Notes: a model not told the origin generated them from the sequence alone. A DNA stretch of 45,279 bases from Candidatus Levyibacteriota bacterium (GCA_016188975.1 JACPGQ010000027.1:1-45279); one strand, 5' to 3'. Numbered from the stretch's first letter, positions 21,394-29,441 are shown. Made by a program: numbers and translations.

Positions 21394-22101
21394 CTATCGT
21401 TTTCTGCCAAAAGTGGTGTAATCGGTAAGTTTTTGGAGATCGAGGACGGTAACCCTTCCTCTGTTTACTCGTATAATTCCCTCATCTTCGAGCCTATGAA
21501 GCGAAAGGGTGACTGTTTCGCGAAATGCACCGACGAATTCAGCGATGCGTTGATGCGTCAGTTCAAGTCCTATTTCGATCTCATTTTTTACCTTGATACC
21601 AAATTTCTCAGCGCAATCAGCCAGAAAAATTGCAACACGAGGAGTCGTACTCGCATAAATAAAACTCTCGAATTTTTTTTCCGTGAGGGCGAGACGGTCT
21701 CTATATGCTTGGAGGAGTTCTACGAGAATCTCAGGGTTATTGGCGATCCGATCGAAGCATTCTTTGCGAGATATTGTTTGTACTTTCAGAGGTGTCACTG
21801 CCTCTGCTGCATGGAGTGTGCGGTCATCCTTACTGAGGAGTGTTCGAATGCCCAGTAGCTGGCCTGGGCCGAGAAGATAACTTGTCGTTTCTCTTCCCTC
21901 TTCAGATAAGCGATAAATTTTGAGATAGCCTTCTCGTATTAAATATAATCTGCCCAGTGGATCACCTGTGTTGAAAAGTACCGAACCTTTTTTGACAAAC
22001 TGTACTGGCGGTGCGTCCGGCTCTGAGAAAAGCGAGGTAAAATCAGGCGGATCCCAGACCCGATCGAGTCGCTCCTTGAGTTTTCGTTTCTGCTCGTCCA
22101 C
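21394..22101 (-). CDS. CRP/FNR-family transcriptional regulator
   Basis: A 235-aa protein with an N-terminal cyclic-nucleotide-binding-like beta roll (residues ~32-115; KGSVLFNTGDPLGRLYLIREGYLKIYR-like), a dimerisation helix (~122-148) and a C-terminal winged helix. The recognition helix is GAFRETVTLSLHRLEDEG (residues 191-208). Arg194 and Glu195 match the CRP pair that reads the site, but the CRP Arg185 position is Leu199. No cysteine set for an Fe-S cluster as in FNR is visible, and the effector is unknown. The start is GTG at 22101, six bases after a TATAGT -10. The gene is divergent from the KAS III gene and is the prime candidate to control the lipid cluster. Confidence 0.88.
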   Translation of the reverse strand: MDEQKRKLKERLDRVWDPPDFTSLFSEPDAPPVQFVKKGSVLFNTGDPLGRLYLIREGYLKIYRLSEEGRETTSYLLGPGQLLGIRTLLSKDDRTLHAAEAVTPLKVQTISRKECFDRIANNPEILVELLQAYRDRLALTEKKFESFIYASTTPRVAIFLADCAEKFGIKVKNEIEIGLELTHQRIAEFVGAFRETVTLSLHRLEDEGIIRVNRGRVTVLDLQKLTDYTTFGRKR

Positions 22102-22206: not shown

Positions 22207-22223
22207 TTGTAAATTTGTTACAA
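22207..22223. promoter_or_regulatory. Operator-like palindrome between regulator and KAS III
   Basis: TTGTAA-N5-TTACAA, perfect arms. The half-site TGTAA is the same as in the palindrome at 29258-29273 in front of the reductase operon, though the spacing is one base shorter. Confidence 0.4.
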
Positions 22224-22332: not shown

Positions 22333-23445
22333 ATGTTACCAATTGAAGCACGAGCTGGAATGATTCCAGCGATTACAGGGGTTGGAAGCGCAGTTGGATC
22401 TGAAATTAAGACAAACGATGATCTGATACCTCATATAACTGCAGCAAACCCAGAGAAATGGGGTGGAAAAGAGCGTGCTTTCCGAATGCTCATGTATAAA
22501 GTTGGAATCCAAACGAGGCCACAGGTACGTATAGGAGAACAGGCAACCTCTCATTTGGCAACAGAAGCATCGAGAATAGCGATGGAGATGGCAGGAATAA
22601 GACCTGAGGATATCGGCTCAGTAGTAATTGCTACTTCCTCACAAGATTATTTAGGTCTTCCAGTTTCCCCTATGGTCCAAGATAATCTTGGTATTCCGAA
22701 TGATGTTGGAGCTTATGATCTCATGGCAGCCTGTCCAGGGTTTGGGCATAACCTCAGAAATGCTTTTTATGAGGTGACTCATCCTCTTTGGGATGGTAAG
22801 CCGATGCTTATAGGAGGGGCTGAGACAATAAGCCCATACACTGACGCTACGGATGAGAATACCTACCTGCTCTTTGGAGATGCCGCTGGATCGGTGATAG
22901 TTGATTTAGTGAAACCCGATGAAGGTGCACCGACAATATGGAAGATTGTCAGATGGTCAGACGGTAGTAAACGTATGGCAATTAGGGTCGATGCTGGAGG
23001 AACAATGAATCCACCAACTGAAAGGACTGTAAGGGAAAAACAGCATGTACTACGTCTAGATGGAAAAGTAGTAACTCAAACAGCTATTGAGCAGATGACA
23101 AGGCAAATAAAAGACGTACTCGAGCAAACGGGATATCCTGCCGAAGAGGTAAAACTTATTCCACATCAAGCAAATAAGAGTATTATGAATCCTGTAGCAG
23201 AGAATGTTGGGGTTCCTCGCGAGCATGTTGTGGTGACGATTGATAGATACGGAAACACATCTTCAGCAAGTATTCCGACTGCTCTCTACGAAGGTTTTCT
23301 GTCGGGACAGGTAAAACGTAATGAAGTTGTGGTATTTTGTACAGCAGGAGCTGGAATCAATGTCGTATCGGGAGTAATTCCGATGGTTGGATTACCTCAG
23401 GAACCAGATCCGCGATTTCATACGGTTGCAAGAGTTGCAGCTTAA
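22333..23445 (+). CDS. Beta-ketoacyl synthase III (FabH-like)
   Basis: A 370-aa thiolase-fold condensing enzyme. The complete KAS III triad is visible: Cys134 in DLMAACPGFG, His278 in LIPHQANKSI and Asn308 in RYGNTSSAS. In FabH this enzyme condenses a CoA-linked starter with malonyl-ACP to begin a fatty acid. The C-terminal FCTAGAGINVVSGVI is the usual glycine-rich end. It is about 45 residues longer than E. coli FabH, mostly at the N-terminus (residues 1-50) and the C-terminal tail. The KAS II gene follows after six bases, so the pair forms one operon. The start is fixed by a promoter with the ATG 6 nt beyond the -10. Polyketide or HMG-CoA-synthase-like roles remain possible, but the HQAN and GNTSSAS motifs favour FabH. 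Confidence 0.88.
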   Translation: MLPIEARAGMIPAITGVGSAVGSEIKTNDDLIPHITAANPEKWGGKERAFRMLMYKVGIQTRPQVRIGEQATSHLATEASRIAMEMAGIRPEDIGSVVIATSSQDYLGLPVSPMVQDNLGIPNDVGAYDLMAACPGFGHNLRNAFYEVTHPLWDGKPMLIGGAETISPYTDATDENTYLLFGDAAGSVIVDLVKPDEGAPTIWKIVRWSDGSKRMAIRVDAGGTMNPPTERTVREKQHVLRLDGKVVTQTAIEQMTRQIKDVLEQTGYPAEEVKLIPHQANKSIMNPVAENVGVPREHVVVTIDRYGNTSSASIPTALYEGFLSGQVKRNEVVVFCTAGAGINVVSGVIPMVGLPQEPDPRFHTVARVAA

Positions 23446-23451
23446 TTATCT

Positions 23452-24690
23452 ATGATTGATACTGAACCGAGACGAGTTGTAGTCACTGGTATTGGAGCGT
23501 TTTCCGCTCTCGGAGATTCTGCCTCGAAAAATTTCCAAAACCTCGTTGATGGGCAAATCGGCATTTCCCCTCTTCCATTTGAACATTCAACAATAAAGCT
23601 TGCAGGGCAAATAGCAAATTTTAATCTACGGGTAGTTTTTAGTGGATTCGACAATGCTCGGTTTAAAGAAACGAGACGGCTCCCCCGCGCTGCTCAAATA
23701 AGCGATGCTGCTGTTCAGGAAGCTTTACGAAGCGCTTGGCTTTTGAATGATGATTCTTGGTTCAGGGACCCAAGTCTCGCTGAGGAACTCCCTATATATA
23801 TGGCGACAGCAATTGGTGGTGGTTTTGACGTCGACGGACCTGATGCAAAGACGAAGATAAAAATAATTCAAGTTCTTCCTGATACAGTTGCCAGCGGACC
23901 AGGAAGACTATTTGGATTAAAAGGAACAAACATGTCACCGGTAGCAGCCTGTGCAGGCAGCGGTGAAGCTATAGGGATAGCGTTGAGAAATATCAGACAT
24001 GGATACAACGACATCGCTGTTGCAGGGGGAGCTGAGAGCGGCATAATGTCCCGACATCTTGATTACTATGCGGAGATAGGAGCGTTATCAAATTCAGAAG
24101 ATCCTCAGAGAGCAAGCATGCCGTTTGATGCAAACGCTTCTGGTATTGTTCTGGCAGAGCTGGGAGCAGCATTGGTACTCGAGTCAGAGGAGCATGCGGT
24201 GAGAAGAGGAGCGCAGATTTTTGGAGAAGCGTTAGAATTTGCCACCGGATCTGATGCATCCCATCCAACGATGAGCGATGGGTCTGCGCTGCGAAAAACG
24301 ATGCGTCGTGTCCGTATGGCTTTCGATGAAGAAAACACAGATGGAGTCATATTTGTTCAAGCCCATGCCACAGGAACTGAGGGAGATATTGTAGAAGGTG
24401 AAGTAATTGAAGAAGCGCTTGCAGAAGATCGTGAAAAAGTTGTTTATTCGTATAAAGGGAGAACCGGCCATCCGCTTGGTGCTGCAGGGGGATATGGTGC
24501 TTTCGTAACATTATTTGTCCTCAATAGTGGCACTGTGCCCCCGAATAATATTGAACATCCGGTTAAGAATTTTGACTTTGAGCTTCCACAACAAGCAGTT
24601 CAGAAAAGGGTTACGGCAGGGATAAGCAACTCATTAGGATTTGGGGGAAATACAAATTCTCTTGGGTTCGTGCCATACGTGCCCCACTAG
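23452..24690 (+). CDS. Beta-ketoacyl synthase II (FabF-like)
   Basis: A 412-aa elongating condensing enzyme. RRVVVTGIGAFSALG (residues 7-21) is the standard KAS I/II opening. The Cys-His-His set is present: Cys167 in SPVAACAGSGEAIG, His305 in VQAHATGTEGD and His340 in GRTGHPLGAAGG. The end SNSLGFGGNTNSL matches the family FGFGGTNA loop. It should extend acyl-ACP chains by two carbons with malonyl-ACP. Its length is typical of FabF. It is downstream of the KAS III gene in one operon and converges with the second KAS III-like gene 34 bases away. No acyl carrier protein gene, which normally neighbours fabF, is found here. Confidence 0.88.
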   Translation: MIDTEPRRVVVTGIGAFSALGDSASKNFQNLVDGQIGISPLPFEHSTIKLAGQIANFNLRVVFSGFDNARFKETRRLPRAAQISDAAVQEALRSAWLLNDDSWFRDPSLAEELPIYMATAIGGGFDVDGPDAKTKIKIIQVLPDTVASGPGRLFGLKGTNMSPVAACAGSGEAIGIALRNIRHGYNDIAVAGGAESGIMSRHLDYYAEIGALSNSEDPQRASMPFDANASGIVLAELGAALVLESEEHAVRRGAQIFGEALEFATGSDASHPTMSDGSALRKTMRRVRMAFDEENTDGVIFVQAHATGTEGDIVEGEVIEEALAEDREKVVYSYKGRTGHPLGAAGGYGAFVTLFVLNSGTVPPNNIEHPVKNFDFELPQQAVQKRVTAGISNSLGFGGNTNSLGFVPYVPH

Positions 24691-24724
24691 GTTAGTTTTG
24701 GCATCTGTGTTCGTCGAATAGGAG

Positions 24725-25948
24725 TTACGCAGCGAGCCGATCTCGGTAGAGGTTTGGATCGAGGAAGACAAGTTCTGCAAAATCTTGAGACCCTCCTGCT
24801 CCGTAAGCAAATATTATTACACTCCGCCCTGGCTCTGTGATGTCACGTACGTTGCCGTCGTGATAATCAAAACCTCGATGAAGTACTTTTCCCAGGGTGG
24901 CTGCACTACTATTTCCATCCTCCTTAGCAAGAAAAGGCATAGGTGCAGGTATTTCGTTGCGTTTGAGATCTCCGACGAAGAGATCGAAGACCGGTAGACT
25001 CGGATTGTGGGCAAAAATGGGGGGGAGCTGTTTTCCAGGATGTGCATCCATGTAGGCCTTCATTTCTCGTAATAAGAACGGCCCGGACTTCCTTCCAAAA
25101 AACCGAAACGTTGCCATTCCATCCATCCAAATATCATACCCCTCTGGAGGCTCTGCCATGATTATCATCTCCGTATTGTTCTCTGAATCTACCTGCCAAT
25201 ACTGTCTTATATCTTTAGGATCTGTGATCGGTTTTGTTTTATCTTTGTAGGTCATTGTCGCAGCAAGTACGCCGTTTTCATCAGGAATAATTTCATGACG
25301 ATGATGATGTATCTCTGTTTCAACAAGAGAAACATATCCTGTTATGGATACTGAATTTGAAAACGCACGATATGATGTAATGTCTACTCTTTTAGGGTTA
25401 TTTGTATATCTTGTCATGCCCTCAACGTTCACTTGCAATATCCTTTTTCCCTGAAATTCTTCTCGCTCGTGTGCTGCAGCTAATCCATACGCTGGTGAAT
25501 TACAGGCCGCAAAGACGTTAAGTGTTGGAATGTCAGGGTCTAGACCGATTCGATCTGCTATCTCTCTTGCGTAATTTGGAATTTTCCTTTTCCCATTGAT
25601 GCCTGGCATACCGCTTGTTACGATTACGCCTCCGACATCGGGTTTTGCCCATTCTCTTTCTCTAATTACCTCGTTTCCTACAGTTACTGCAGCCTCGATC
25701 TCATCTGATATGGCAGCTTCATCGTCGAGTTGGGGGTCGGTTTGATAAATGCAGTCAAATCCAAGATCTTTTTTGCGGAGTTCGTCCTCTGGTACTTGAT
25801 AGTATGTTGAAGCTCTACTTATGACCTCGTCTCTTGATAGCTTTACTCCCCATTGGCCATTTATTCCGACAATACCGGTGACGCTTCGATGTCTGTCAAT
25901 ATCAATCGGAGTGCCACTCGAGAGTTTGGGAGGTGTCAGCGTTTCCAT
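24725..25948 (-). CDS. Divergent KAS III-like condensing enzyme
   Basis: A 407-aa thiolase-fold protein, last gene of the minus-strand lipid operon. The putative triad is Cys149 in NVFAACNSPAYG, His314 in FAHNPSLPVFD and Asn346 in EDGNSSAATLGKVL. The usual HQAN is replaced by HNPS, but Cys, His and Asn keep the right order and spacing. The mid-domain has long insertions (residues ~215-265, with HHHRHE). Such proteins occur as second FabH copies, as starter-unit enzymes in polyketide pathways or as OleA-like head-to-head condensing enzymes. Which applies here cannot be told. It lies 66 bases after the dehydratase-like gene. Confidence 0.8.
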   Translation of the reverse strand: METLTPPKLSSGTPIDIDRHRSVTGIVGINGQWGVKLSRDEVISRASTYYQVPEDELRKKDLGFDCIYQTDPQLDDEAAISDEIEAAVTVGNEVIREREWAKPDVGGVIVTSGMPGINGKRKIPNYAREIADRIGLDPDIPTLNVFAACNSPAYGLAAAHEREEFQGKRILQVNVEGMTRYTNNPKRVDITSYRAFSNSVSITGYVSLVETEIHHHRHEIIPDENGVLAATMTYKDKTKPITDPKDIRQYWQVDSENNTEMIIMAEPPEGYDIWMDGMATFRFFGRKSGPFLLREMKAYMDAHPGKQLPPIFAHNPSLPVFDLFVGDLKRNEIPAPMPFLAKEDGNSSAATLGKVLHRGFDYHDGNVRDITEPGRSVIIFAYGAGGSQDFAELVFLDPNLYRDRLAA

Positions 25949-26014
25949 ACGAAGAGTATATTGATTTTTGGATCTTGCGGTCAGTGCGGGAGATTACAAA
26001 GGATTAGTAGTTAT

Positions 26015-26971
26015 TTATGCTGCGAAAAGCGTTTGCGCTTGTTCAAATGGGATGAGTCCTGCTTGAGTTCTTTTGTACGACGTAACGAGCTCGTCTCGCT
26101 GATTGAGGACTGTAGCTCCTGATGCAACAATAACAACGTCTCCCATTGGTCTGATTTGGAGTCCTTGTGGAATAATTTGAAGCACATCCCCTACTCTAAC
26201 TGGTCTATAATACTCGGCTCCTGCAATTTTTTTGAAGACGCCTACTTTGAGTGGTTTTCCTTCTGCATCTACTGGAAGACCTCCTGTTCCCATAGCCGCC
26301 GTTGCTATGAATTGAATTGCTGCTTCATCAATCTCATCAAAGGGTAAAACCTCTTCATTCTTAGGTACCCGTTCAAACCTCACTCTTTTCATGCTTATTA
26401 CGTCTTGACCCCCACGTTTCCCTTTAATATCCGCATACACTCCATCAACGCCTGCTCCTTGTGTTTCGGCAGTAAATTCTGCAGTATCTCCTTTTCTCAC
26501 AACTCCCTCAAAATTGACTGTCTCACTACTCACGACGAATACATCATACTTCTGCCTAAATTCTTCAAGTGTTAGGTTGTATGCAGACAATACGGCTGTT
26601 GTTACACCAGCACGTTCACTATAGTGACCAGGAGTTGGTTTAAATTCTTGGAGTAACCCGTCAAAATGTCCTGTGGTTTGGAGATCTGCAGTAAAAGATC
26701 CTACCCCGTTTTGAAATGTGTCAAGCGTAGGGACCGATCGTGCCCATCGAACTAGTTCCGGAGTAACCGTGAGAAATCCTCGAGCATTTTCTCCTTCTCC
26801 ATCAACTCGGTGGATACGAATTGCCGGAGGTCCCCAAATATCGAGTGCTGTCTGTGGGACGGTAGGTGGGAGAATGATGTCGGCACGAGGCAGAGTTATA
26901 TCACTCGGTTTAGGTGCTTGAAATCCTGCTTCTTGTGGAGAAATTGGCTGTCTTGGTGTTCCGTCTAGCAT
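26015..26971 (-). CDS. Double-hotdog dehydratase-like protein
   Basis: A 318-aa protein that looks like two fused hotdog folds. Half 1 contains TTGHFDGLLQEFKPTPG (His102), which resembles the FabZ/DH histidine motif. Half 2 contains DEIDEAAIQFIATAA, whose Glu216-x3-Gln220 resembles the FabZ/FabA acidic helix, followed by YYRPVRVGDVLQIIP, the hotdog strand seen in FabA/FabZ. His in half 1 and an acid in half 2 is the layout of polyketide-synthase DH domains. The expected reaction is dehydration of 3-hydroxyacyl-ACP. The start ATG at 26971 lies one base after the stop of the upstream SDR gene (TAA-T-ATG), which rules out the longer frame to 27028. The fold call is by eye and needs a profile search. 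Confidence 0.6.
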   Translation of the reverse strand: MLDGTPRQPISPQEAGFQAPKPSDITLPRADIILPPTVPQTALDIWGPPAIRIHRVDGEGENARGFLTVTPELVRWARSVPTLDTFQNGVGSFTADLQTTGHFDGLLQEFKPTPGHYSERAGVTTAVLSAYNLTLEEFRQKYDVFVVSSETVNFEGVVRKGDTAEFTAETQGAGVDGVYADIKGKRGGQDVISMKRVRFERVPKNEEVLPFDEIDEAAIQFIATAAMGTGGLPVDAEGKPLKVGVFKKIAGAEYYRPVRVGDVLQIIPQGLQIRPMGDVVIVASGATVLNQRDELVTSYKRTQAGLIPFEQAQTLFAA

Positions 26972-26972
26972 A

Positions 26973-28169
26973 TTAAATCGGACTTCTGAATGTGAGCATT
27001 GGATGGTCTTGAGGAATTTCCCTGACAATATTTGCTCGCGCTTCCTCTGGGGTTCCTGTCGGACCTAATACATAGAGTTTTCGCGGTTGTCCTGGCGTCC
27101 AAAGCTCAGGATCGTTGGGATCTGAGAGAAGCATGATCTGGACCGCCCTGGACATATCGGCTTTCATCATTGGCTTGTTGGTATCTGTGTATCGTTTTCT
27201 ATCATCTTCTGATAGTAAGGGCAAAAGGTATTGGTTTACCATTCTTCCAACACCAGTATCGTCTATCACCTGTCCTACAACAGTGTATGGGAAAACTCCA
27301 TTGGATTCCAGATAGCTTCTTCCTTCATCAGAATGTATTTCGTCGTCATGAGCTTTTTTTGATTCTGATATCGTGCGATACCAGTTAGGGACAATTGTGT
27401 CCTCATCAAGATCTCGTGCAGATTCCGCAACCTTTTCCGCTTCACTCCACGCGCTAGCAAAATTTATATATTTTGCTTCGTCTGTAAAAAGACCTTTCTG
27501 GATAAGATCTTCTAGCAGCAAACTTGGTCCAGCGTAATTTACTTTCATTGCCATCGGCATTGACCGAATTACCCACTGCACAACATCCTGTTGTAGTTTG
27601 GCACGCGCTTCTACAAATGCCTCTTCACCTTGTTCAGTACGTATAGTTGCCAATTTCCCCATCGCTTTCGTAAGTCTTAGTGCGTAGAATTCTATTCCTC
27701 CGGCGCTTACATTTATCTCTGCAGAGAATTTATCACCGCCTTTACTTTCTAGTTCGTTGCCAACATTTTTGATGCTTCGTCTGTTTAAAAAATCGACCTT
27801 GACCGGGGTAATATGTGCATCAATATCAATCTCTCCAGAAATTTTTCCTCCTGCCTGAGACGTTTTTGCATCTTTAACAACTGACCCTTCAATTTTTTCT
27901 GGATTTCTTGTGAGAATTGTCACTTTCGCTCCCATCCCGACAAGATCTAGTGAGACTGTGGCTCCTGTGCCCCTACTCCCTCCCGTAACGAGGATTTCTT
28001 GCCCAAAAAGAGGTAGCCCTTCAGCTGATTCAGTTTGCGGGAGAAATGCAGCCGAAGCGTCTAGAGCTCGAGGGGTACCGAAATCTGCTCCTCCGCCACC
28101 CTTTCCCCCAAAAGGAGCTTCGGTTTGAGTGTTTGCAAAAACACCTGCTTCGAGTGCTGCTATTGGCAT
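26973..28169 (-). CDS. SDR reductase, candidate enoyl-ACP reductase
   Basis: A 398-aa short-chain dehydrogenase. After a 55-residue Gly-rich N-terminal extension, the nucleotide-binding strand is EILVTGGSRGTGATVSL (TGGSRGTG at 62-69). NVSAGG (153-158) and MKVNYAGPSLLLEDLI (208-223) are the SDR Asn motifs, and KYINFASAW is the Ser strand. No Tyr is placed in the classical Y-x3-K register. Instead Tyr264 and Lys271 have the Y-x6-K spacing of FabI-type enoyl reductases. This suggests it does the second reduction of the cycle, but it could be a ketoreductase with an altered site. Long insertions (residues ~100-150 and 240-262) set it apart from standard FabI. It begins five bases after the FabG-like stop. 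Confidence 0.7.
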   Translation of the reverse strand: MPIAALEAGVFANTQTEAPFGGKGGGGADFGTPRALDASAAFLPQTESAEGLPLFGQEILVTGGSRGTGATVSLDLVGMGAKVTILTRNPEKIEGSVVKDAKTSQAGGKISGEIDIDAHITPVKVDFLNRRSIKNVGNELESKGGDKFSAEINVSAGGIEFYALRLTKAMGKLATIRTEQGEEAFVEARAKLQQDVVQWVIRSMPMAMKVNYAGPSLLLEDLIQKGLFTDEAKYINFASAWSEAEKVAESARDLDEDTIVPNWYRTISESKKAHDDEIHSDEGRSYLESNGVFPYTVVGQVIDDTGVGRMVNQYLLPLLSEDDRKRYTDTNKPMMKADMSRAVQIMLLSDPNDPELWTPGQPRKLYVLGPTGTPEEARANIVREIPQDHPMLTFRSPI

Positions 28170-28174
28170 ATTTT

Positions 28175-29224
28175 TTAGGCTGCGAGCCAGGTTGGGATTT
28201 CTCCTCGACCAAACATTGGTATTACTTGACCTGTGATTCCGTCGGAGTACGGACCCATCAAATAGGCGAGCATAGCTCCCGGTTCACCTGCATCAAGTTC
28301 TCTGTCGGCTCCCATTTTTGTAACAATTCCTGCACGAACCTCTGGTGATAATCCGGCAACTAAGGGGGTATCAACAAGTCCTGGGGCAATTGCGTTTACT
28401 TCAATATTGTGAGGTGGTCTGCCTTTTTCAAGAGCTCTCTGATTCAGAATATTAAGCTCGTCTGCAAGAGCTCTTATCCCTGCGTGAAATGCGCCTTTCG
28501 CCATTGAGTATTCAATTTGAAAAGCGTTTCCAATTCCAGAAGCACTTCCAATCCCAGCTATTTTCCCTCCAGCTGGGTTCTGGCTTTGCATAATCTCTGC
28601 AGCAGTTATAGCGGCAAACATTGGCCCCTCGGCGTCCTTTAATAGAATCTCTCGTACCTTTTCTGGTTCAACTTTTTTGTATGACCAAGTGTTCTGCATA
28701 TCTCCAGATCCCACGATGAGGCCATCCAGTCTGCCCCGCTCTTTTGCAACCTGCCGTACGAGTCTTTGACCATCATACATTTCGACTTTTTTTCCCCTAT
28801 CGTTTGTCACCGAAATCCAAGCTGCAACATCTGAACCCATCCACTGCGCATTTGGGCCAAGCTTTTCAAGAAATTCTCTCATTCCTGAACTTTTCGGTTC
28901 GCCAGAATCGGTCATCCGAGAACTCACCACTACAAACGCACCCTGTAAAATCAGCTCCCTTGCTGCAGCACCAGCCATTCCTTTAGGGCCAGCTCCAAGT
29001 GCAAGAATCACTTTTCCTTGCATTACCTGATTTTCTCTTGCCTCACGGATTGTCTGGGCATTAAATCCTGTAATGTCTGGATTAAAAACTTGAAGGCTTA
29101 ATTCCAGTGGCTTCGCTACCTGTTGTTCCGCTCCGCCTGGTAGTACTCCTGTATCAGGATATAAAAGTTCTGTGCGTCCGATTCTGGCGAGGGGTCCTGC
29201 AAATGTTTCTATTCCTGCTGCCAT
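28175..29224 (-). CDS. SDR 3-ketoacyl reductase (FabG-like)
   Basis: A 349-aa protein, first gene of the minus-strand lipid operon. A 68-residue N-terminal extension (with LARIGRTELLYPDTGVLPGG) precedes the Rossmann domain with VILALGAGPKGMAGAAA (residues 72-88, G-x3-G-x-G type). GIGSASGIGN (224-233) gives the catalytic Ser, and Tyr239-SMA-Lys243 is the classical Y-x3-K. NAIAPGLVDTPL (near residue 283) is the FabG-style loop. It should reduce 3-oxoacyl-ACP with NADPH. The start is at 29224, six bases after a TAAATT -10, with a CRP-type palindrome centred at -41.5. Confidence 0.82.
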   Translation of the reverse strand: MAAGIETFAGPLARIGRTELLYPDTGVLPGGAEQQVAKPLELSLQVFNPDITGFNAQTIREARENQVMQGKVILALGAGPKGMAGAAARELILQGAFVVVSSRMTDSGEPKSSGMREFLEKLGPNAQWMGSDVAAWISVTNDRGKKVEMYDGQRLVRQVAKERGRLDGLIVGSGDMQNTWSYKKVEPEKVREILLKDAEGPMFAAITAAEIMQSQNPAGGKIAGIGSASGIGNAFQIEYSMAKGAFHAGIRALADELNILNQRALEKGRPPHNIEVNAIAPGLVDTPLVAGLSPEVRAGIVTKMGADRELDAGEPGAMLAYLMGPYSDGITGQVIPMFGRGEIPTWLAA

Positions 29225-29230
29225 GGAATA

Positions 29231-29273
29231 AATTTAGACTTTATTGGCGGGGAAATCTGTAATGTCTCTTACA
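29231..29273 (-). promoter_or_regulatory. Activator-type promoter of the lipid operon
   Basis: The -10 TAAATT (29236-29231) is 6 nt before the ATG at 29224, so the start point should coincide with the start codon. The -35 position (CAGATT) is poor. The palindrome TGTAA-N6-TTACA (29258-29273) is centred between 29265 and 29266, exactly -41.5, the class II site of CRP/FNR activators. Confidence 0.55.
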
Positions 29274-29441
29274 AAAGTTGAGGAAGTTTTGTGGTCATTT
29301 TTAGTACACGTGACATATTAGTTTTTTGCTTATAATATTTGTCTATCAGCAGAAGTATTTCTCAAAACATCACAAATTTGTCCTAGGGAAAAAATGTGAT
29401 GATTATGAAGTTTATGACTCAGACAGCGTCAGAATACTAAC

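Follow-up and report, generated by a model that had tools for sequence, protein, structure and literature searches.

A diverged type II fatty acid synthase-like gene cluster, with a candidate enzyme for each elongation step, in a genus of Microgenomatia

In a genus of Microgenomatia, six neighbouring genes of the window, that is, the whole 45,279-nt stretch of DNA analysed here, probably encode the chain-elongating part of a strongly diverged type II fatty acid synthase (FAS-II), a reading that we hold with moderate confidence from the sequence. It draws on gene content, intact active sites, synteny with a sister species, linkage to a regulator gene and an upstream box across genera, and a FabD gene in the same genome. 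As originally predicted, the six genes could supply a full elongation cycle, with a candidate enzyme for each step. The contig that forms the window comes from a 1.31-Mb genome (G000), 94% complete, and the genome of the sister species (G001) is 89% complete. From the names of the regulator's relatives (Levyibacteriota, Daviesbacteria, Blackburnbacteria and other Patescibacteria MAGs) we infer that G000 belongs to the class Microgenomatia, which agrees with its earlier placement in the Patescibacteria. The features of the locus are:

21394..22101, minus strand: CRP/FNR-family regulator, divergent from fabH (cNMP_binding, HTH_Crp_2)
22207..22223, no strand: perfect dyad TTGTAA-N5-TTACAA between crp and fabH, putative regulator site
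22333..23445, plus strand: FabH-type KAS III (FabH1), C134-H278-N308, C-terminus -VAA
23452..24690, plus strand: FabF-type KAS II, C167-H305-H340
24725..25948, minus strand: KAS3b, divergent KAS III-like protein, C149/H314/N346, C-terminus -LAA
26015..26971, minus strand: double-hotdog protein (HD), probable 3-hydroxyacyl dehydratase, from a weak 4HBT match, its fold and homology to the L098 fusion
26973..28169, minus strand: SDR2, Y-x6-K short-chain reductase, probable enoyl-thioester reductase, from a Rossmann match and homologues
28175..29224, minus strand: SDR1, FabG-like 3-ketoacyl reductase (YSMAK), adh_short_C2, C-terminus -LAA
29257..29274, no strand: CTGTAATGTCTCTTACAA, putative box for the regulator, 33 bp before the start of SDR1

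All six open reading frames were found where the original prediction had placed them, and the proposed catalytic residues of FabH (Cys134/His278/Asn308) and FabF (Cys167/His305/His340) fell in the expected alignment columns. The claim that all the proteins carry unusual N-terminal extensions had to be dropped, as FabF begins like an ordinary KAS II. SDR1 is the opening gene of the minus-strand operon, in which the stop of SDR2 and the start of HD are one base apart in the window and the sister alike; the gene order suggests tight coupling of the genes. For HD, the ATG at 26971 is more likely to be the start than the TTG at 27028 of the ORF list, because the sister protein begins MLDGTP. The GC content of the locus equals that of the remaining contig, which speaks against recently acquired foreign DNA.

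Profile and PDB comparison show FabH and FabF to be FAS-II enzymes of the ordinary kind, although diverged. FabH1 matched ACP_syn_III_C above the Pfam cut-off (2.5e-24), the NCBIfam FabH subfamily under that model's cut-off (3.9e-66) and FabH entries in the PDB down to 2e-38. FabF matched ketoacyl-synt above the Pfam cut-off (6e-27), NCBIfam fabF under that model's cut-off (6.2e-71) and a FabF in the PDB (1.2e-48), and the best solved relatives of both proteins were primary FAS enzymes. The proteins were aligned with 12 other KAS II proteins and with eight further KAS III-type proteins, which included one HMG-CoA synthase; FabH1 and KAS3b kept Cys/His/Asn and FabF kept Cys-His-His in the catalytic columns. 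KAS3b was recognised by a KAS III model only (NCBIfam, 6.4e-6), and the Pfam search gave zero matches. It was found in just two of 40 relatives, a scan of named genomes returned no further relatives of it, and it appears so far to be unique to this genus. Full-length KAS II genes were rare in the class, being present in 10 of 233 sampled genomes (E < 1e-20), and one of them was a modular PKS.

Among the family assignments that had been proposed, profile searches bore out those of FabH, FabF and SDR1 above the Pfam cut-off, and those of SDR2, HD and KAS3b weakly or in part. SDR1 matched adh_short_C2 at 1.5e-19 and has the YSMAK motif; its score against FabG models was about 65 bits, far under their curated cut-offs. 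SDR2 is a 398-aa SDR with an N-terminal extension carrying QTE motifs, and it matched SDRs over the Rossmann (nucleotide-binding) start only. Its sequence YRTISESK is a Y-x6-K motif as in FabI. The same spacing was present in five of the six reductases compared (SDR2 of the window and four relatives), and the sister has Y-x5-K. A search of Pfam and NCBIfam for a specific enoyl-reductase model gave no match, and the predicted structure (pLDDT 36) was too poor to argue an active site. SDR2 has homologues in G018, a genome of the same family (E 2e-13), and in the N-terminal half of the fusion L098 (E 6e-9). Its extension (window 28169-28020; L003:2390-2650) contains the repeated short motifs GVFANTQTEAP and AAFLPQTESAE, with three copies in the sister, and a similar ESGE stretch lies ahead of the SDR core in L098 and L044. 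These repeats are perhaps docking motifs.

HD matched 4HBT below the Pfam threshold, and a Pfam search for FabA or FabZ gave no match. The top Foldseek matches were double hotdogs, thioesterases and dehydratases, obtained with a low-confidence query model (pLDDT 46) that was too poor to argue an active site. HD was homologous to the C-terminal half of the L098 fusion (E 8e-10); its direct similarity to the hotdog-like protein of G018 was not significant, and the two are linked solely via that fusion. HD is a probable 3-hydroxyacyl dehydratase, and it could instead be a thioesterase. In Daviesbacteria, SDR2 and HD are fused (L098), and in L095 and G244 an SDR with Y-x6-K is fused to a FabZ-type hotdog.

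The cluster recurs in the sister species, so it is not absent from related genomes. In G001 (locus L003, contig JAUYMJ010000027.1) it has the same neighbours, pyrC on one side and the CRP gene on the other, with all genes on one strand. The CRP proteins of the two species were 87% identical, KAS3b 85%, pyrC 67%, SDR2 42% and HD 36-40%, and FabG, KAS III and FabF were only 18-29% identical (FabF 24%, KAS III 18%). FabH1 and FabF of the window were nearer to copies in other genera (G002, 38%; G109, 35%) than to those of the sister. Because the promoter of the minus-strand operon is conserved between window and sister despite the low enzyme identities, it seems that the genes within this fixed locus were exchanged or diverged. 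Contamination is unlikely, since the sister species has the same locus.

A more distant cluster was found in G018, which represents another genus of the family. One contig end (L058) holds a FabD-ACP fusion, whose PP-binding match exceeds the cut-off, together with AcpS, FabG and the first part of SDR2, and another (L134) holds the remainder of SDR2, a hotdog-like protein, FabF, a CFA synthase (CMAS, 2.8e-74) and an acyl-ACP desaturase (1.5e-93). The two ends, each holding part of SDR2, are joined here by inference only. The G018 cluster resembles that of the window in its homologous SDR2 and in the order FabG-SDR2-hotdog-KAS, but differs in having FabD-ACP, AcpS, CFA synthase and desaturase, and KAS3b was not seen on the two contig ends.

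The regulator next to fabH matched cNMP_binding (2e-15) and HTH_Crp_2 (1.5e-15), both above cut-off, which places it in the CRP/FNR family, and it is a probable regulator of the cluster. A CRP/FNR gene adjoins FAS genes in seven Microgenomatia loci (G000, G001, L095, L097, L098, L099 and L100); L096, with no FAS neighbour, is an exception, and L101 is a cut locus. Seven copies of TTGTAA-N6-TTACAA with at most one mismatch were counted in 600 kb, of which six preceded FAS or regulator genes at those loci, and in a random control one of 400 intergenic sets had a dyad common to five or more regions; these numbers overstate the certainty, as the motif was picked from the same regions in which it was later counted and the loci are related. 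Near matches at other spacings were scattered, and in the window alone the dyad at two mismatches was not enriched. The spacing of the dyad at 22207..22223 is one less than the common N6, and the box at 29257..29274 recurs with its flanks in the sister. The shape of the dyad is what a CRP-type helix-turn-helix is expected to bind. The linkage of a CRP/FNR gene to fatty acid synthesis genes, together with a shared upstream box across Microgenomatia loci, is new. The same box, with two mismatches, also precedes the CRP gene of L096 (9902-9919), where the neighbour encodes a 1747-aa protein and is not a FAS gene.

Proteins ending in -AA made up 12 of 47 FAS-type proteins compared to 5 of 377 others of the same loci, counts in which related sequences are not independent and which concern a pattern noticed before testing. 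They include FabH1, KAS3b, HD and SDR1 of the window and FAS proteins of L003, L044, L084, L098 and L099. The tail is a possible degradation signal. Copies of the SsrA tag were considered and rejected, as the tags of three tmRNAs, one read by ARAGORN and two by eye from an alignment, end in AFA, FTA and YSA and are only loosely similar.

ACP, FabD and Acc genes are missing from the window, as had been noted. FabD lies elsewhere in the same genome (G000:C57; Acyl_transf_1, E 5.8e-26; GHSxG motif), so a search of the rest of G000 recovered fabD, and it returned neither acpP nor acetyl-CoA carboxylase. A search of G001 did not find FabD; this genome encodes BirA, a fused acetyl-CoA carboxylase (BC-CT fusion; C70/C94) and a small possible BCCP, read by eye and without a Pfam match. 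With FabD and the carboxylase encoded at these other sites, the earlier description of the pathway as self-contained does not hold. The missing carrier does hold when the whole genomes of both species in the genus are searched: the incomplete assemblies of G000 and G001 gave neither a PP-binding match, even with E relaxed to 10, nor an AcpS at E 0.001, with the AcpS control matching in 10 of 14 genomes. No ACP-like small ORF turned up either when the window and six further loci from this genus were scanned for motifs.

These absences come from searches of incomplete MAGs, and the gaps do matter, since FabD was not found in one of the two genomes and the carboxylase not in the other. From the completeness of 94% and 89%, the chance of a given gene missing from both assemblies is estimated at about 0.6% if the two are independent, and ACP and AcpS are therefore more likely to be truly absent or diverged past recognition than lost to chance gaps. 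The carrier may have been lost, become unrecognisable or been replaced by CoA. Given a FAS-II, an ACP that is too diverged to recognise, or that was missed by the assembly, seems to us likelier than CoA as the carrier, because FabD, whose known job is the transfer of malonyl from CoA to ACP, is retained and because the G018 cluster has FabD-ACP and AcpS. One candidate carrier was rejected, namely the ACP-like protein that six Microgenomatia genomes encode between nusB and rnc (L086:8622-8867, L087:9216-9455, L090:8848-9087, L091:5433-5675, L092:1147-1386 and L093:921-1169). Its phosphopantetheine serine is replaced in all six, by proline in five and by aspartate in one, so it is not a normal carrier, and a search of the genus for PP-binding matches of any kind found none.

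In the FAS-II that we propose, malonyl-CoA would come from the carboxylase, seen in the sister genome, and would be loaded by FabD, encoded on another contig. FabH would start the chain, as perhaps would KAS3b with a different primer, and FabF would elongate it. SDR1 would reduce the 3-keto group, the double-hotdog protein would dehydrate, and SDR2, FabI-like in its Y-x6-K, would reduce the enoyl group. The CRP/FNR regulator probably controls both transcription units via TTGTAA-N6-TTACAA-like sites, and the product would most likely be fatty acyl chains for membrane lipids.

The same enzymes might instead elongate CoA thioesters, with the carrier protein and AcpS truly gone, which we consider rather unlikely. 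Such an ACP-independent cycle would fit the lack of ACP (E up to 10) and AcpS in both genomes and the lost phosphopantetheine serine in all six of the only free-standing ACP-like proteins examined in class relatives, and the same idea was raised for Nealsonbacteria by Probst et al. 2020 (PMC7242380). However, FabD is present in G000, a relative of the same family has FabD-ACP and AcpS, and FabH and FabF are of the ACP type by profile. A similarly low probability goes to the combined reading in which several Microgenomatia lineages synthesise their fatty acids through a FAS-II regulon that is co-regulated and evolves fast, and in which the chain is held in this genus by CoA or some other carrier and not by ACP.

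A specialised lipid or polyketide pathway for a secondary metabolite, with a special condensation by KAS3b setting a dedicated acyl product, is unlikely. The three condensing enzymes do differ in type, and KAS3b, so far seen in a single genus, is far better conserved (85%) than its neighbours (18-42%), the sequences around it having turned over strongly. Yet the best matches of FabH and FabF are primary FAS enzymes, the G018 cluster lies next to an acyl-ACP desaturase and a CFA synthase, and no carrier or thiotemplate genes were seen among the window proteins examined. The previously undescribed pathway of the original prediction gives way on the same grounds: FabH and FabF are FAS-II enzymes by profile and PDB comparison, and the homologous G018 cluster adjoins fatty-acid modification genes. 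That the genes are decaying or non-functional, or contaminate a binned genome, is very improbable. The extreme divergence from the sister (FabF 24%, KAS III 18%) and the missing partner genes could be taken that way, but all frames are open, the catalytic residues are intact, the site between pyrC and crp is the same in two species, the GC content matches the contig and the promoter box is conserved.

Compared with bacterial FAS-II (FabH/FabF/FabG/FabI/FabZ, FabD, ACP, AcpS), the cluster likewise offers a candidate per elongation step, with FabD in the genome. Its enzymes, however, share only about 20-40% identity with the relatives used for comparison, the candidate for the dehydratase belongs by family to neither FabZ nor FabA, being a double hotdog, the reductase (an SDR of 398 aa) carries an extension, there is an additional KAS III-like enzyme, and ACP and AcpS were not found in this genus. 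The archaeal proposal of ACP-independent synthesis reportedly depends on thiolase-type condensation, whereas FabH/FabF-type synthases and FabD are present here. The likeness to that proposal (Lombard et al. 2012, cited in PMC7242380) lies in the missing ACP and AcpS.

According to Probst et al. 2020, a complete pathway for fatty-acid-based lipids is encoded in none of the reconstructed CPR genomes, and some Nealsonbacteria have a near-complete FAS-II without ACP synthase and FabD (PMC7242380). By that description, Nealsonbacteria (Parcubacteria) are another lineage of Patescibacteria that has FAS-II homologues and lacks ACP processing. FabD and AcpS are reported missing there, whereas FabD is present here and a family relative has AcpS and ACP; the shared regulator and box, set against that description, were seen here. 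A survey of 675 genomes found no known complete lipid pathway and suggested that lipids are acquired from community members (PMC7242380), and fatty acid synthesis is missing from a complete Microgenomates genome (PMC7143001). Our searches of the literature, with subscription journals mostly outside their scope, found no report of this cluster. The cluster challenges the notion that fatty acid synthesis is lacking in these bacteria, without overturning it. With near-complete FAS-II gene sets that are linked and apparently co-regulated in scattered Microgenomatia, the origin of Patescibacteria membrane lipids could be tested by expressing six to ten genes; should the carrier prove to be truly absent, this would also show whether FAS-II enzymes run without ACP. 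The cluster is thus a good test case for both lipid autonomy in Patescibacteria and carrier-free elongation.

Three further loci were observed in the course of the analysis. In L039 (8436-12305) a FabF gene lies between two acyl-ACP-desaturase-like genes, of which one passes the Pfam cut-off and the other does not. A small genome of the Microgenomatia class (L037; G225:C4) contains a PKS/NRPS-like cluster with carrier domains, which may be real or a binning error. On G000:C3, thiolase and HMG-CoA synthase-like genes sit among apparent mevalonate-pathway genes, as read by eye.
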